Assembly: GCA_027604705.1 (NCBI GenBank)
Contig: JADHYV010000035.1
Span: 124,001 to 188,000, forward strand
Direction: 5' to 3'
DNA: 64,000 bases
Origin: Allomyces arbusculus
Lineage: Eukaryota; Blastocladiomycota; Blastocladiomycetes; Blastocladiales; Blastocladiaceae
Shown: positions 9,845-16,790 of the stretch, piece by piece
Layout: every line of letters begins with the position of its first letter
Position numbering within the stretch: position 1 is the first letter of the stretch
Translations under genes and position numbers: made by a program
Notes under the pieces: generated by a model
Told to the model about the DNA's origin: nothing
The model's database searches: none
Seen by the model: only the letters and a program-made list of their open reading frames with translations

Positions 9845-12202
9845 ATGACCGCGCTTGCCGCCATGCTGCGTGCAACGCGTGCGCGACCCCTGGGTGCCGC
9901 TCGCGCCATGCATTTCCGGACCTCAAGTGCTCGCGTATTGCCCAGTACCTTGTCGTGCACGGCAACTTCTCAAGCATGGCGCTCGATCCCCGCGACCCCC
10001 GCTCCGCTGCGCTCCTTGCACGCGTCCGCTTTGCGCGCGTCTCCACCCAAGTCGGCCGCGGCACCGGCATCCACCAGCACGAGTACCACGACCGTGGCCG
10101 ACCAAGCAGCCGATACCGACCCGGTCACGCTGAAACCCGTCTCTGCGGCCACCGAGGGCGCCAACGACTGGGCGATCATGAAGAATCTCGCGCGGTACCT
10201 GTGGCCCAAAGACGATTTCGGCGTCAAGGCGCGCGTCGTTGTTGCCATGACACTTCTTGTCGCCGGCAAGGTACTCAACGTGCAGGTGCCCTACCTGTTC
10301 AAGGAAATCGTCGACAAGCTCACGGCCGCCGGTGTGAATGTCGACATGATGACCGTCGCCGGCACTGTGATTCTCGGGTACGGAGCGGCACGGATTGGCG
10401 CGAGCCTGTTCTCCGAACTGCGATCGGCTGTGTTCGGCGCCGTCGCGCAAAAGGCGATTCGGTCGGTCTCGCGCACGATTTTCGCACATTTACTACACCA
10501 AGACGCGGCGTTCCATGTGGCCCGGCAGACAGGCGCACTGACGCGTGCGATTGATCGTGGGACAAAAGGCATCGCTTTCGTGCTCAGTTCCATGGTCTTC
10601 CATGTGGTCCCGACGGTCCTGGAAATCGGACTCGTTTGCGGAATCTTGGCCACGTCGTTTGGCGGGCCCTATGCGCTCGTCACGGCCACGACCATGGTCG
10701 TGTATACCGGGTTTACGGTCGCGACGACCTCGTGGCGCACGAAGTTCCGGCGCGACATGAACGCGGCCGACAATGCCGCAGCGGCGCGTGCGGTCGACTC
10801 GTTGGTGAATATCGAGGCCGTCAAGTATTTTGGCAACGAGCAGCTCGAGACGCGCGAGTACGACAAATCGCTAGCCCAGTACGAGACGGCGGCCGTGCGC
10901 ACGACCACGTCGCTCGCGTTTTTGAATGCTGGGCAGGCGTCGATTTTCGCTATTGCGCTCACGGCCATGATGGGTATGGCTGCGCAGGGTGTCACCGCGG
11001 GGATCCTGACTGTCGGGGACTTGGTTATGATCAACGGGCTCGTGTTCCAACTGTCGATGCCGCTCAATTTCCTCGGGACCGTCTACCGCGAGCAGCGGCA
11101 GGCGTTGACGGACATGGACACCATGTTTGCACTGCAGACGATCGAGCCGTCCGTCAAGGACGCGCCGAACGCGCCACCGCTCAATTGGACCAAGGGCGAG
11201 ATTGCTTTTGACAATGTGCGGTTCGGGTACATGCCCGATCGCGACATTTTGCAGGGCCTGTCTTTCCGCATCCAGCCGGGCGAACGTGTCGGCTTTTGCG
11301 GCGGGTCCGGGTCCGGTAAATCGACGCTCGTCAAGCTGCTCTTCCGTCTGTACGACCCGGCGTCGGGTACCGTATCGATCGACGGCCAGCCGCTCGCGCA
11401 GGTGCAGGCCGCGTCGGTGCGCGACCGCATGTCGATTGTCCCGCAGGACACGGTTTTGTTCAACGCGTCGGTCGCGTACAATATCCGGTACGCACGGCCC
11501 GACGCGACCGACGCCGATATAGAGCGTGCCGCGCGCCGCGCGCAAATCCATGACCGGATCGTGACGGCCGATCCGGCCGGGTACGCGGCGCAGGTCGGGG
11601 ACCGTGGGGCCAAGTTGTCGGGCGGCGAACGGCAGCGGATCGCGCTGGCGCGTGCGATTTTGCGGTCACCCAAAGTGCTTGTCGTGGACGAGGGCACGTC
11701 CGCGCTCGATGCGCAGACCGAGGCGGCGCTGCTCAAGGCCGTGGAAGAGTACCTCGACCATGGCAGCGACGAGACCAAGACGACGGCGATTTTCATTGCA
11801 CACCGGTTGTCGACACTCACGCACTGTGACCGGATTTTTGTGCTCAAGGAGGGCCAGGTGGCCGAGGTTGGGTCGCACGATCAGTTGCTGGCGATTCCGA
11901 ATGGGTTGTACCGCGCCATGTGGATGGCACAGCAGGCCGGCGGGAACGCGTTGGCAGCGGACCAGGTGCGCGAGGCGGTGGTTGTGGACGAGGACGATGC
12001 CGCGACGGTAGTCGGCGACGAGAGCGCCGAGTCGCCGGTGCACAAGGTGGACGCCGATGTCGCAGAGGAGGCCGAGCTCGTGGATTTGGTGGGTGGTGAG
12101 TCGGACCCGGCACACAGTGCTGCAGCCAGCACCGAGCCGCGTGGTCAAAAGGAGGTGGAGAACGTTGAGGGCACAGACAAGGGCGCGCCCCCGTCGAATT
12201 GA
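9845..12202 (+). CDS. ATM1: Mitochondrial ABC transporter Atm1 (iron-sulphur precursor exporter)
   Basis: Inner-membrane half-transporter of the ABCB7/Atm1 family, which exports a glutathione-linked sulphur or iron-sulphur intermediate from mitochondria for cytosolic iron-sulphur protein assembly. Single exon, 785 residues, close to family size. The first ATG at 9845 opens an Arg/Ala-rich presequence without acidic residues, fitting mitochondrial import. The six-helix membrane domain spans roughly residues 130-420. The nucleotide-binding domain has Walker [10 protein letters not shown] (about 484-492), signature [16 protein letters not shown] (from about 591), Walker B with [12 protein letters not shown] (about 611-622; the family usually has DEATSALD) and an H-loop FIAHRLST near 650. 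The membrane part keeps Atm1-type stretches such as [11 protein letters not shown] and [10 protein letters not shown]. The acidic tail after residue 690 is longer than in yeast. Confidence 0.95.
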
Positions 12203-12830
12203 ACGAGATTGATTTGATGTTGATCGTGTACTATAGCGTCACTATTGCAAACGTAGAAATGGAAACAAATCGTCGCTGGTGGGGGTAGTCATTCAATTTC
12301 CTTTCATCTCATGGCATTTCCAACTGTCCTGTGGCACATCTGTCTTCTCCACCGGATCACTATTGCTCGCTTTCGTCGGATCATCTTCTTGAGTAGTTGC
12401 GCGTTCGTTGGCTTTGAAGGCATCAGAACACCCTGGACCAGGCACTGCAAACAATACAGAGCCAGCCTCTCAAATCCGAGCTTCGTCACGTCGCGCCCGC
12501 ATCAACATGGTCACTTGTAACAAGTCGTCCGTGGCCGGGCGTTGGGAGGTGCATGTAGTCGCCGGGAGTGCCAGCTAAGCAGCAACTACATATCAACGAC
12601 GGCCAGGGGCAGTGAGACCACCCGATCGTCTGTCGTGTTTGCCACGCGCATGCAGCGAGCGAGCTGGCCACCGGCCCTTTCTATCTTCTACAGAGAAGGA
12701 CTCGGGGGAGGAACTCCTGACAATCCTCGCCCTCAAAACGCGCTGCTCGTGCCGTGCCAACGCTCCACTCTCCTCAGCCTCACTTGCTGTCTCAACCACC
12801 CACTCACACCCACCCACCCACCTGTCCACC
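12203..12830. other. Intergenic region, ATM1 to first thioredoxin
   Basis: This 628 bp holds the ATM1 3' region and the promoter and leader of the first thioredoxin copy. The last 35 bp before the thioredoxin ATG are pyrimidine and CCCA-repeat rich, ending in CCACC just before ATG, a good initiation context. Nothing else was recognised. Confidence 0.5.
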
Positions 12831-13484
12831 ATGGCCACTCATGCCTGTTCTCTCGATGAGATCCAGGGGTCAATCGCGTCTGGTAGTGCCGTCGCTGTCT
12901 ACGTATGTTTGCATCCCCCCCCCCCCTACACGCTCCTCTCCTTGCCCAGCGCAGCGCGGGAGCTGGGCACGCTCTGCGCGGTTGCACCAAATCTTGCGCA
13001 CGAGAGCACGCGCGTAAACAGAGCCGTGTCAGCTAATTCCAGCTCATACGCATGCGTCGCTGACACTGCCCCATGCCTTTATGTTCACATTGATACATGA
13101 ACTGCACTTCGATACGCGACGCTCACGCTGTCCTCTCCGCTCACGTTCAATACCAGTTCAGGGCCGCATGGAGCGGTCCGTGCCGCGCCATGGAGCCTGT
13201 CTTTGACCATCTCGCGATGACAACGCCGGGTGTCAGGTTCCTGAATTGCGACATTGATAGCGTCCCTGTATGAACTCGTCCATCTCCGCGCTTCTGTCTT
13301 GCTCTGCCGCTTGCTCACTCGCCCGCTGACGCTGTCTCGATGTTCTTGATCTATCCAGGCCGCCGAACAGGAGTATGGCGTCCATGCCGTGCCTGTGTTC
13401 ATGTTTTTCAAGGGCGGCGTCAAGGTCAATGCGGTGACTGGTGGCGACGCAAATGCGGTTCGACAGGCCGTGTACGCTCTCTAA
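12831..13484 (+). CDS. Degenerate thioredoxin paralogue with SGPC active site
   Basis: Thioredoxin-fold protein of 102 residues in three exons: 12831-12902, 13157-13267 and 13359-13484, with introns of 254 and 91 bp. Intron positions and phases match the second copy exactly. The frame is intact from ATG to TAA. Three catalytic features of thioredoxin have changed. The active site reads W-S-G-P-C, so the nucleophilic first Cys is Ser. The buried Asp before the FW motif is Tyr (VAVY-F). The Trp of FWA is Arg (FRA). The cis-Pro segment is AVPVFMFFKGG in place of [11 protein letters not shown], so the cis-Pro is kept. It therefore should not act as an ordinary dithiol reductase. It may bind targets through the remaining Cys, have another role, or be an early pseudogene. 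Its intron 1 carries a 12-base C run. Confidence 0.85.
12915..12926 (+). repeat. C homopolymer (12) inside intron 1 of the first thioredoxin
   Basis: Twelve consecutive C on the sense strand, shortly after the GTATGT donor. The sister gene's intron 1 also has a C run, but near its 3' end. Confidence 0.9.
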
Positions 13485-14061
13485 GTTCGCGCGCCCACAC
13501 GTCATGCATGCACAGTAGCACCTTCTTGCTTGATTTGTTTTTTATGAATTGGGCGATACAATGAGACGGCTCTCTTTTGAGTAGCATTCATTCTGCCTCC
13601 TTGTCACGTTTGTGAAGCTTCATGGCCAAGGCTTGCAAGTGATTTTTTCTGATCGTCTACACGAAAGGTCATGTGGAGGTGTCAACCCAGGTTCACAACC
13701 CACGCGAGGTCAGACGAACGTGCCGCGTTGCGTCGCATCCACCTTTAAACGTCCTGTTTTTCTGGCAAGTTGTGGCCAGGTCGTCGGAGGGTTGGCGCGG
13801 CAAGGGCGGCGCGACCAGCACCGACACGCAATCAACGGTTGATGCACAACTGACGCGGTGGTGTGTATTCCACGTGGGCAGGGCGCGTTGTGGCTGTCCT
13901 TGCCTGCTTCAGCACCTTTGTTGCTGACTCGCACGCTTCCGTGCAGACCGAACCGACGTGGCACCCCCTCTCAAAACGCGCAGACCGATCCCCGCGCCGG
14001 CGCTTTCTCCCCAGCCCGCTCGTTTGCTGCTTCTCCCAACCTTCTCTCTAACTCATTCACC
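13485..14061. other. Intergenic region between the two thioredoxins
   Basis: This 577 bp holds the 3' region of copy 1 and the promoter of copy 2. No coding frame or RNA gene was recognised. The final 20 bp before the copy 2 ATG are pyrimidine-rich (CTTCTCTCTAACTC type). Confidence 0.5.
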
Positions 14062-14748
14062 ATGACCGTCGCTGTTGTCACGTCGCTCGCCCAGCTCAAG
14101 GAGACGATCGCCTCGGGCGCCGCTGTTGCCGTCGACGTACGTTTTCCTGCACGATCACGGCGAGGACCTGTCGCGCGCACGCACGCGACAGGGCTGCGCG
14201 CTCGTGAGCACATGGTGCTGCGTTCCTGCTTGCGCTGCAGCCGCGGCATGGAATGTCGCGCGCGGGCACGCGACACCTCGCGAGCTCGACGTGCTCTGGT
14301 CCAGCTCGCACGCGTGCCGCGCAACGCGTTAATCGTTGTTCCTCGCCACTCCTGATCCCCCCCCCCCCCCCTCCCCCTCCATGCACACACTCACCACCGG
14401 CAACCCCGGTCCGCCGTAGTTCTGGGCCACGTGGTGCGGTCCGTGCCGCGCCATCTCGCCCATCTTCGAGCGCCTCTCGGACGAGACCAAGGGCGTCACG
14501 TTCCTGAAGTGCGACGTGGATGAGCAGGCGGTACGTTTGTGCGCGCCCACTCCCCCACCCCATCTCCCTCGAACGCATTCCACTGACGCGCGCTCGCGTT
14601 TTCCATTGACGTTTCACAGGAGGTTGCGCAGGAGTTTGGCATCCGCGCCATGCCCACGTTCATGTTCTTCAAGGGCGGCGAGAAGGTCGAGGAGATTGTC
14701 GGCGCCAACCCGGCCAAGCTCCAGTCGGCCATTGCCGCGCTCGCCTAA
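14062..14748 (+). CDS. Thioredoxin
   Basis: Small cytosolic disulphide reductase, re-reduced by thioredoxin reductase and donating electrons to peroxiredoxins, ribonucleotide reductase and similar targets. 104 residues in three exons: 14062-14136, 14420-14530 and 14620-14748, with introns of 283 and 89 bp (GTACGT donors; TAG and CAG acceptors). The canonical features are all present: buried Asp at the end of exon 1 (VAVD), [11 protein letters not shown] at the start of exon 2, FLKCDVDEQ, and cis-Pro in [11 protein letters not shown]. The exon 1/2 junction splits the VD-FW motif. The length matches the family. It sits head-to-tail 577 bp after its degenerate paralogue, so the pair is a local duplication; this copy is probably the functional one. 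Confidence 0.95.
14357..14371 (+). repeat. C homopolymer (15) inside intron 1 of the second thioredoxin
   Basis: Fifteen consecutive C on the sense strand, about 50 bp upstream of the 3' splice site and followed by further CT-rich sequence that may serve as a polypyrimidine tract. Confidence 0.9.
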
Positions 14749-15142
14749 GGTGACGACGCTTGTGCGCGTGGGTGACACGACGCGGGCCGCCAGGCCGCTC
14801 GCGTCGTCTTTTTGTGAATAGTCGATAAAGATGAAACGTCTTTTTGCAAGCACGGCGGTTTCGGGTTGCCCCAGGAGCACGGGGCAGAGTCGGGCAACAC
14901 AGCGAGCGCACAAACGCGCAATCAACTCACACACCATCGACGCCATCAGAACTCGACTGAACGCCCTGCCCGACCCCCAGCGTGCCAGGGAAAGCGCGGC
15001 CAGCGAGAACACGACACAGGTCACGCCCAACCAACTGAAATCACATTGCGCGATCGACACGCTAAAAAAAATCAGCCCACGGATATCACACCAAAATTAC
15101 AATCAACTCCCCTCACCACCGCTCGCGGCGCTCTATACTCGT
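14749..15142. other. Convergent intergenic region
   Basis: This 394 bp lies between the thioredoxin stop (plus) and the permease stop (minus). An A-rich stretch occurs near 15062-15070. No further gene was seen. Confidence 0.5.
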
Positions 15143-16790
15143 TCACGCCGCCTTGGCGTGCCGCTCTGGCCACACAACGAGCGCAAAGTACGGCACGACC
15201 CCCGACACGACAAACGCGAGTCCAATCCCGGATGTCAGCCGCGACGTGTCGCTGTCGAAGAACGGGAAAATCAGCAGGAACAGTGACACGAGAAACACGG
15301 CGAGCGGGCCGAGTGCATTGACGTGCACGCCCTTGCGCGTTGGGTCGCGGCCAAAGAGGCCTTGCGGGCTGCGCAGCTTGACGAGGAACAGACCCAGGTT
15401 CGTGAGACCGTAGAAGAGCCAGAGGGGATACGAAACACCTACACGGATGAGCAGGGGCGTGAGACGTCTGGTCGCATTTTCGGTGGAGAAAAGAGGGGGA
15501 CCGGGAGGGAAACGTACTGTCCATGACCATCCAAAACGCGTCGCCAGAGAACATGAACATTTGCACCATCGTCATGAGAAAATTGAACGCGAGCGCGTTC
15601 ACGGGGGTCCCGAACCGACCGTTCAATGCCGCGAAAAATTTCGGGAACACGATCAGCCGCGACTCGCCCGTGGCCTGGCCGATACGACTTGCCGAGTAGG
15701 TCGTGATTTCGCAGCATGCGCAGACGACAAAGAAGATGAGCAGCGACACGACGATCCGGCCCGAGGGACCAAACAGGTTCTGGCCCCAGATCGCGGCGAC
15801 GCTGCTGCCGGCCGTCGACATGTCGGCGTACGGGACCACCACAAAGAAAGACAGGTTTGCGAGCAGGAAGAGAACGGCGACGGTCGTGATCCCCATGAAC
15901 GTCGCACGCTGGATGTTCCGCTCGGGGTTCTTGAGCTCGCCGAGCGACGAGGCCAGGTTCGCGAAACTGATGGCGAGATAACAAGCACAGTCAGCGTTTC
16001 TTGAAGACTTTGAGGAACACCAGCCCGGCGAGTACGGCGTACCCATCGTAGGACCACATGATCTTGAAAAAGGCCATGGCAAACGCGCCTGGGTGCGACT
16101 TCGTGCCCGCAAACAAGTGTTCGTTCGAAAAATTGTCGAGCGTGCGGCCTGGAATAATCCCGACCAGTGCCAAGATCCCCGACGCCGAGAACGCGAGCAA
16201 AAGCGTGACCGAGATCATGGTCACACCCGTGACAAACCGACCAGCAAGGTGGTTCGACGGCACGCACATGAGCGTGAGCAGCGCAACAATCCCGGCACCG
16301 AGCCGCTTGGCGTACCATTCGCCGCCGTCGCCGTCGTGTTCGGGGAACGTGTCCGGGAACGCTGTGACCAAGTAGGTGCCGGCAATCATGCCCAAACTCG
16401 CGCAGTAGCCCGGGTTGATCAGCGCGACGCGCGTCCAGGCGTACATGACAGCGAGCAGTCGGCGCGGGACTGGGTAGGCAAAGTCGAGGAACGGCGCGTC
16501 ACCGCCCGACACGGGCAGCCGCGAACCCCATTCGGCGTAGGCCATACTGGCCGTGAACGCGACCAAGGCGCCAATGATCCACATGATCAGTGCCGGGCCC
16601 GTTGCGCCGACGAGCTCGACGACTTTGGACGGGTTGGTAAAAATACCAGAACCGACCATGGCGCTATCAAAGCCAGTGGAGAACGGTCAACTGTCGTTGC
16701 GGGTGCGGGAAAAAAGAGATATCGGACTTGGTACGGACCCGGCAATGAGCGCCGCGCCTTGCAGCGCGTTGAGCTGGGGCGTCAACGCTG
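15143..16790 (-). CDS. LAT-family amino-acid permease (APC superfamily), 5' end unresolved
   Basis: Plasma-membrane amino-acid transporter of the L-type/Mup1-like group. The coding segments are: one ending near 16733; about 16659 and just upstream to 16019; 15966-15518; and 15438-15143. They are joined across introns at roughly 16667-16732, 15967-16018 (52 bp) and 15439-15517 (79 bp). The first helix carries MVGSGIFTNPS, the family GSGIF substrate-binding loop, preceded by LTPQLNALQGAALIAG. Helix 6 has WSYDGYAVLAG and is followed by the typical LGELKNPERNI. About twelve hydrophobic helices can be counted, ending in LVVWPERHAKAA. I could not find an ATG in frame with the first segment: a GRRQRRK-containing frame runs upstream from about 16790 without a start, so a further 5' exon is likely. 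Substrate cannot be told from sequence. Confidence 0.8.

Follow-up and report, generated by a model that had tools for sequence, protein, structure and literature searches.

A tandem thioredoxin pair in Allomyces arbusculus with an intact copy that has lost the attacking cysteine and the buried aspartate

A thioredoxin that has no attacking cysteine cannot complete the reduction of a disulfide. Redox-dead thioredoxin domains are already a known kind of protein, and an atlas of the fold class lists the loss of the N-terminal cysteine (cxxC) as an active-site type, with peroxiredoxin 5 as its example (PMC2757866). CnoX of Escherichia coli, which has an SxxC site, shows no oxidoreductase activity and becomes a holdase, protecting its clients via mixed disulfides through a cysteine outside the motif (PMC6282202). 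For Bacillus subtilis TrxA, it is reported that the resolving cysteine of the C29S mutant still forms mixed disulfides, less efficiently and in less stable form, and that the protein without its attacking cysteine is about 17% dimer (PMC2896474). In Caenorhabditis elegans, the TRX-1 allele C38S, with a WSGPC site, no longer shows the NO OFF response, while the ON response is normal and pathogen avoidance is kept, both depending on another cysteine (PMC6066330). Judged by title, the one “monothiol thioredoxin” in the literature searched is an engineered human derivative. In the literature searched, whose coverage is partial, no natural stand-alone SGPC thioredoxin was found, the one relevant WSGPC match being the engineered worm allele, and no title named a paper on the thioredoxins of Blastocladiomycota.

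Here we analyze two thioredoxin genes lying head to tail on the plus strand of a window of the Allomyces arbusculus genome, referred to as copy 1 and copy 2. The reading towards which we lean, with slightly more confidence than doubt, is that copy 1 is a reductase-dead thioredoxin which is expressed, acts through binding and has been kept by selection after a tandem duplication.

The thioredoxin locus and its duplication

The window is a stretch of 64,000 nucleotides (contig C35, positions 124001-188000) from an assembly of 25.9 Mb in 197 contigs. A sequence-only reading had placed two thioredoxin genes at 12831..14748, and our gene models confirm them (Table 1), with 12831 being the A of the copy 1 ATG and 14748 the final base of the copy 2 stop codon. 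Copy 1 encodes 102 residues in three exons separated by introns of 254 and 91 nt, and copy 2 encodes 104 residues in three exons separated by introns of 283 and 89 nt. Each of these introns has GT-AG ends, is in phase 0 and lies at a matching codon in the two copies. The intact 102-residue frame, splice sites and cis-Pro that had been claimed for copy 1 were borne out by the gene model; stops, frameshifts and other pseudogene lesions, including lost introns, are absent, and the start context, CCACCATGG, was graded good. Using positions 12300-14900 as the query, a DNA search of the assembly returned only the region itself, as did a search with the upstream positions 12203-12830.

Both copies match the Pfam Thioredoxin family (PF00085), copy 1 with an E-value of 3.5e-16 and copy 2 with 7.3e-29. 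The 59.5 bits of copy 1 against a gathering score of 23.5 place it in the family, which is also its only Pfam match. Against TIGR01068, the NCBIfam thioredoxin equivalog with a cut-off of 96.8 bits, copy 2 scores 110.2 and copy 1 only 57.4; the WSGPC site of copy 1 lacks the CxxC dithiol of a functional equivalog.

Table 1. Features of the tandem thioredoxin locus, in window coordinates
Feature	Position	Strand	Remarks
Promoter word CTCAAAACGCGC of copy 1	12732..12743	+	99 bases before the copy 1 ATG
Copy 1 exon 1	12831..12902	+	last codon Tyr24 (12900-12902), replacing the buried Asp
Copy 1 intron 1	12903..13156	+	GTATGT...CAG, phase 0
Copy 1 exon 2	13157..13267	+	WSGPC; Ser30 13172-13174; kept resolving Cys33 13181-13183
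Copy 1 intron 2	13268..13358	+	GTATGA...CAG, phase 0
Copy 1 exon 3	13359..13484	+	cis-Pro73 (AVPVF), stop
Copy 1 3' block common to copy 2	13539..13579	+	local alignment
Promoter word CTCAAAACGCGC of copy 2	13970..13981	+	92 bases before the copy 2 ATG
Copy 2 exon 1	14062..14136	+	last codon is buried Asp25
Copy 2 exon 2	14420..14530	+	WCGPC; Cys31 14435-14437, Cys34 14444-14446
Copy 2 exon 3	14620..14748	+	cis-Pro (AMPTF), stop
Copy 2 3' block	14809..14846	+	matches 13539-13579

Inspected by eye, the translation of the upstream neighbor (9845-12202, plus strand) resembles an ABC half-transporter of the mitochondrial Atm1/ABCB7 type, and the downstream neighbor (15143-16686, minus strand) resembles an amino-acid permease with introns. 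Other Trx-fold genes of the assembly, also read by eye, include a PDI-family domain at C49:73645-73842 with WSKQS at the active site, i.e. another Trx-fold domain of this genome without its cysteines, both being lost; a similar gene on contig C29 that has CGHC; and a thioredoxin at C1:793642-793797 that carries a hydrophobic stretch at its C terminus and may be tail-anchored.

The two copies are identical at 48 of 102 aligned residues (47%) and differ at 54. A tree of 11 rows places them as sisters (support 90/96), with branch lengths of 1.49 for copy 1 and 0 for copy 2. As none of the eight inner branches reached the star support level of the tool, the shared introns bear much of the duplication argument. 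Intron positions and phases together with the sister placement thus support the earlier suggestion that the genes are local duplicates. Beyond the locus, copy 1 scores highest against a canonical thioredoxin of contig C19; this gene has intron 1 in common with copy 1 and is without intron 2. By eye, a thioredoxin on contig C1 also has an intron close to the second position. When the differences were simply counted against five outgroup rows, 25 fell to copy 1 and 8 to copy 2, with 21 left unassigned, which points to copy 1 as the faster copy, though copy 2 also changed. An origin of copy 1 from the Trx domain of Grx3 was supported neither by the tree, which took in one Grx3 row on a long branch, nor by identities in the same alignment of 27% to the genome's own Grx3 Trx versus 46% to copy 2. 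In prokaryotic and viral contig collections, a search that detects close relatives only gave 87 prokaryotic and 12 viral pattern matches to copy 1, none of which was confirmed as a relative.

Flanking blocks are shared as well. We compared the best local alignment of each segment with those of 300 shuffles. The 200-base promoters of the two copies gave an alignment reached by 2/300 shuffles; the 12-mer CTCAAAACGCGC within them occurs seven times in the 25.9 Mb genome, twice at this locus, compared with 10 occurrences of the reversed control word. The 3' block, possibly a poly(A)-signal region, aligned with a score of 27 (0/300 shuffles, best shuffle 26). Exons 2 and 3 were each reached by 0/300 shuffles, and exon 1 aligns weakly as DNA, with 7/300 shuffles as good. 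Intron 2 is not alignable between the copies (115/300 shuffles score as high), and the alignment of intron 1 (1/300) arises solely through poly-C runs at different places. These runs lie at 12915-12926 in copy 1 (12 C) and 14357-14371 in copy 2 (15 C), i.e. near the donor in the former and in the downstream part of the intron in the latter, so their position is not shared. Gene conversion of the active-site tract was suggested by identity at 8/8 degenerate codons of conserved residues in codons 23-35, yet was rejected, as a longer run of 10 exists elsewhere (codons 50-71) and is itself not unusual (permutation p = 0.149, 20,000 shuffles).

Residues changed in copy 1

The active-site region of copy 1 reads VAVY/FRAAWSGPCRA, where the slash marks the position of intron 1. 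Compared with copy 2, the nucleophilic Cys is replaced by Ser, the buried Asp by Tyr and the Trp of the FWA motif by Arg, each through a single nucleotide (TGC/AGC, GAC/TAC and TGG/AGG), and the cis-Pro is kept. An assembly or sequencing error could have made SGPC from CGPC, as the change from TGC to AGC is of one base only; however, the change sits among the 54 of 102 aligned residues that differ, and the region is found once in the assembly, making such an error scarcely credible.

To place these substitutions among conserved residues, we used nine canonical thioredoxins, five from the Allomyces arbusculus genome and four from PDB alignments, in which 25 positions are shared by all rows or by all but one. 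Of these near-invariant positions, 16 are kept in copy 1 and nine are lost: Asp to Tyr, Cys to Ser, Ile to Met, Lys to Asn, Val to Ile, Glu to Ser, Ala to Glu and, flanking the cis-Pro, Met to Val before it and Thr to Val after it. With a smaller panel of six canonical rows, the count is 10 of 25. The Trp of FWA (W28) falls outside the nine losses because its position is not conserved: only 2/9 canonical thioredoxins have Trp there, the rest having Phe, Tyr or Thr. By this alignment, the change to Arg removes no conserved catalytic residue. Of the three substitutions that had been pointed out as catalytic losses, those of Cys and Asp are present in the codons AGC and TAC, and that of Trp is real as a change but not as a catalytic one. 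The further suggestion that exactly the redox residues were lost does not hold, as the redox residues are among nine changed near-invariant positions. Retained in copy 1 are the Trp, Gly, Pro and Cys of the active-site loop, the cis-Pro and the late groove Gly.

Selection and decay

The main rival to selective retention is that copy 1 is a young or slowly dying pseudogene, which lost its function fairly recently, with the Cys change as cause or later event, and whose frame is still unbroken. The fast protein branch of copy 1 (1.49 versus 0) and the nine changes at 25 near-invariant positions would both agree with this. Composition also fits it: the third-position GC of copy 1 is 0.66, compared with 0.90 in copy 2, 0.81 in the C19 thioredoxin and 0.78 in the neighboring ABC-transporter gene, and is shifted toward the GC of the introns (0.56-0.69). 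This low value is compatible with weaker expression or relaxed constraint.

Pairwise dN and dS between copies 1 and 2 were 0.43 and 0.76 by NG86, 0.43 and 0.95 by LWL85, and 0.45 and 1.78 by maximum likelihood; the resulting omega estimates are rough, since dS approaches saturation, at values from 0.76 to 1.78 depending on the method. Codon models were then fitted on a three-gene tree (copy 1, copy 2 and the C19 thioredoxin) under three base-composition settings. With synonymous sites near saturation, omega on the copy 1 branch was 0.18 using pooled frequencies, 0.24 using each gene's own frequencies and 0.50 using a mutational GC of 0.58, and on the other branches 0.19, 0.17 and 0.21 in the same order. 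An omega of 1 on the copy 1 branch was rejected in the first two settings (p = 0.009 and 0.002) and was not rejected in the third (p = 0.086), the last result being in favor of the pseudogene. A separate codon-model run gave a difference of 3.57 log units between the neutral and the free model, in line with setting A.

How long a frame may survive by chance was assessed by simulating decay with substitutions alone and no indels. Start, stop and frame survived 20 neutral substitutions in 44% of runs and 40 in 21%, in favor of the pseudogene. After 100 and 120 substitutions, the intact fraction fell to 4.0% and 2.0% of 2000 runs each, with 18.7% and 15.4% of runs free of premature stops alone; frameshifts would be expected to lower the survival of the frame further. 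A copy 1 branch that was neutral throughout would require about 1.0-1.2 substitutions per codon, which is far above 20-40 in all. Copy 1 is also without any stop, frameshift or splice loss, and its promoter and 3' blocks are retained while intron 2 has turned unalignable. Neutral decay ever since the duplication therefore appears disfavored on these comparisons, and we judge the pseudogene, perhaps one that died recently following a long period of function, a serious but rather unlikely alternative. The view that copy 1 changed its function instead of decaying at random is accordingly upheld in part: an omega below 1, the frame and the flanking blocks speak for it, but neutrality is rejected in only two of the three settings.

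Possible binding role and described counterparts

Under the reading that copy 1 is retained by selection, a canonical thioredoxin gene would have been duplicated in tandem along with its promoter and 3' region, and copy 2 would have remained a working thioredoxin. Copy 1 would have lost the attacking cysteine (C to S) and residues linked to the active site, namely the Asp (now Tyr), the Lys (now Asn) and the Met and Thr that flank the cis-Pro on its two sides; it would also have changed elsewhere, while keeping the Trp and Gly-Pro-Cys of the loop, the cis-Pro and the larger part of the substrate groove. Given that the loop residues, the cis-Pro and the late groove Gly are kept, copy 1 most likely serves to bind partners without reducing them. 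Its product may dock on the partners or clients of thioredoxin without reducing them, acting as an adaptor, a holdase or a competitive brake on copy 2, and its Cys33 would at most form slow mixed disulfides.

Alternatively, copy 1 may be a residual monothiol redox protein, in which Cys33, perhaps with Cys55 or Cys6, forms mixed disulfides, transnitrosylates or is glutathionylated. The Gly-Pro-Cys is kept with codons identical to those of copy 2, and the resolving cysteine of B. subtilis C29S can act as a nucleophile; the reactions of C29S are reported as weaker and less stable, and the resolving position as buried (PMC2896474). Cysteines outside the motif have roles of their own in CnoX and C. 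elegans TRX-1, and copy 1 has Cys6 and Cys55. However, Cys55 lies two residues off the CnoX cysteine in the alignment, and it is present in copy 2 as well and is thus no new adaptation of copy 1. We regard the monothiol alternative as improbable.

The loss pattern of copy 1 was compared with those of other nucleophile-less Trx domains. The genome's own Grx3 (contig C11, Trx-Grx-Grx) has WAPQC in its Trx domain, with Asn at the Asp position; the Asp and Cys positions are His and Ala in human Grx3, Tyr and Ala in yeast Grx3, and Tyr and Ser in E. coli CnoX. Tyr, Ser and Cys are found in 80/80 enteric CnoX loci, these being the best 80 of 276 relatives and one lineage. The buried Asp is thus lost in 5/5 nucleophile-less rows, which represent three lineages as three rows are Grx3, and in 0/9 canonical rows. 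This suggests that losing the attacking Cys releases the Asp to change. The Asp loss in copy 1 thus probably followed from that of the Cys instead of arising independently, and the two come closer to a single event with its aftermath. The nine losses of copy 1 overlap those of the genome's Grx3 and of yeast Grx3 at 8/9 positions (hypergeometric p = 0.017 each), and those of human Grx3 at 7/9 (p = 0.18) and CnoX at 6/9 (p = 0.25), the latter two not significant; all four tests are uncorrected, and the positions were selected with the data already in view.

If copy 1 is indeed kept by selection, the locus would be a paired natural experiment, with an active thioredoxin and its reductase-dead twin under related promoters, and the binding and redox functions of thioredoxin would be separable in a living fungus-like organism. 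The joint loss of the first Cys and the buried Asp, often to Tyr, may also serve as a signature for non-catalytic thioredoxins in genomes.

Among known systems, canonical eukaryotic thioredoxins (copy 2, Malassezia 2j23, yeast Trx1/2) share with copy 1 the family, the length, the cis-Pro and the Trp before the active site; unlike them, copy 1 is without the attacking Cys and the buried Asp and scores below the NCBIfam cut-off. The Trx-like domain of Grx3/Grx4 (PICOT) has, like copy 1, lost the attacking Cys (to Ala in Grx3) and the buried Asp (to Asn, His or Tyr in Grx3), has Val before the cis-Pro, and keeps the resolving Cys and the cis-Pro. It is, however, fused to glutaredoxin domains, whereas copy 1 is a stand-alone single domain that ends after the Trx fold and carries no CGFS glutaredoxin domain. 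Copy 1 also differs from the Grx3 Trx domains in retaining Gly-Pro in the loop and in grouping with copy 2, its sister in the 11-row tree with one Grx3 row, and not with Grx3. E. coli CnoX (YbbN) resembles copy 1, without defining a class for it, in the Tyr at the buried Asp position and in the SxxC active site, but it is bacterial, its active Cys lies elsewhere, and it carries a C-terminal TPR domain whose chlorination yields the holdase; no TPR domain follows the Trx domain in the 102 residues of copy 1. The engineered B. subtilis TrxA C29S and C. elegans TRX-1 C38S have likewise lost the attacking Cys and kept the resolving one, but they are laboratory point mutants in which the rest of the site is unchanged, unlike copy 1. 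These comparisons raise the speculative and, in our view, doubtful proposal of a repeatable route after loss of the nucleophile, by which three lineages (copy 1, Grx3 and CnoX) would also have lost the buried Asp, with Tyr in each at least once, and become binding modules. The separation-of-function mutants with WSGPC made in the laboratory would then have a natural, stand-alone counterpart in copy 1, either a holdase or a brake in competition with copy 2 for clients.
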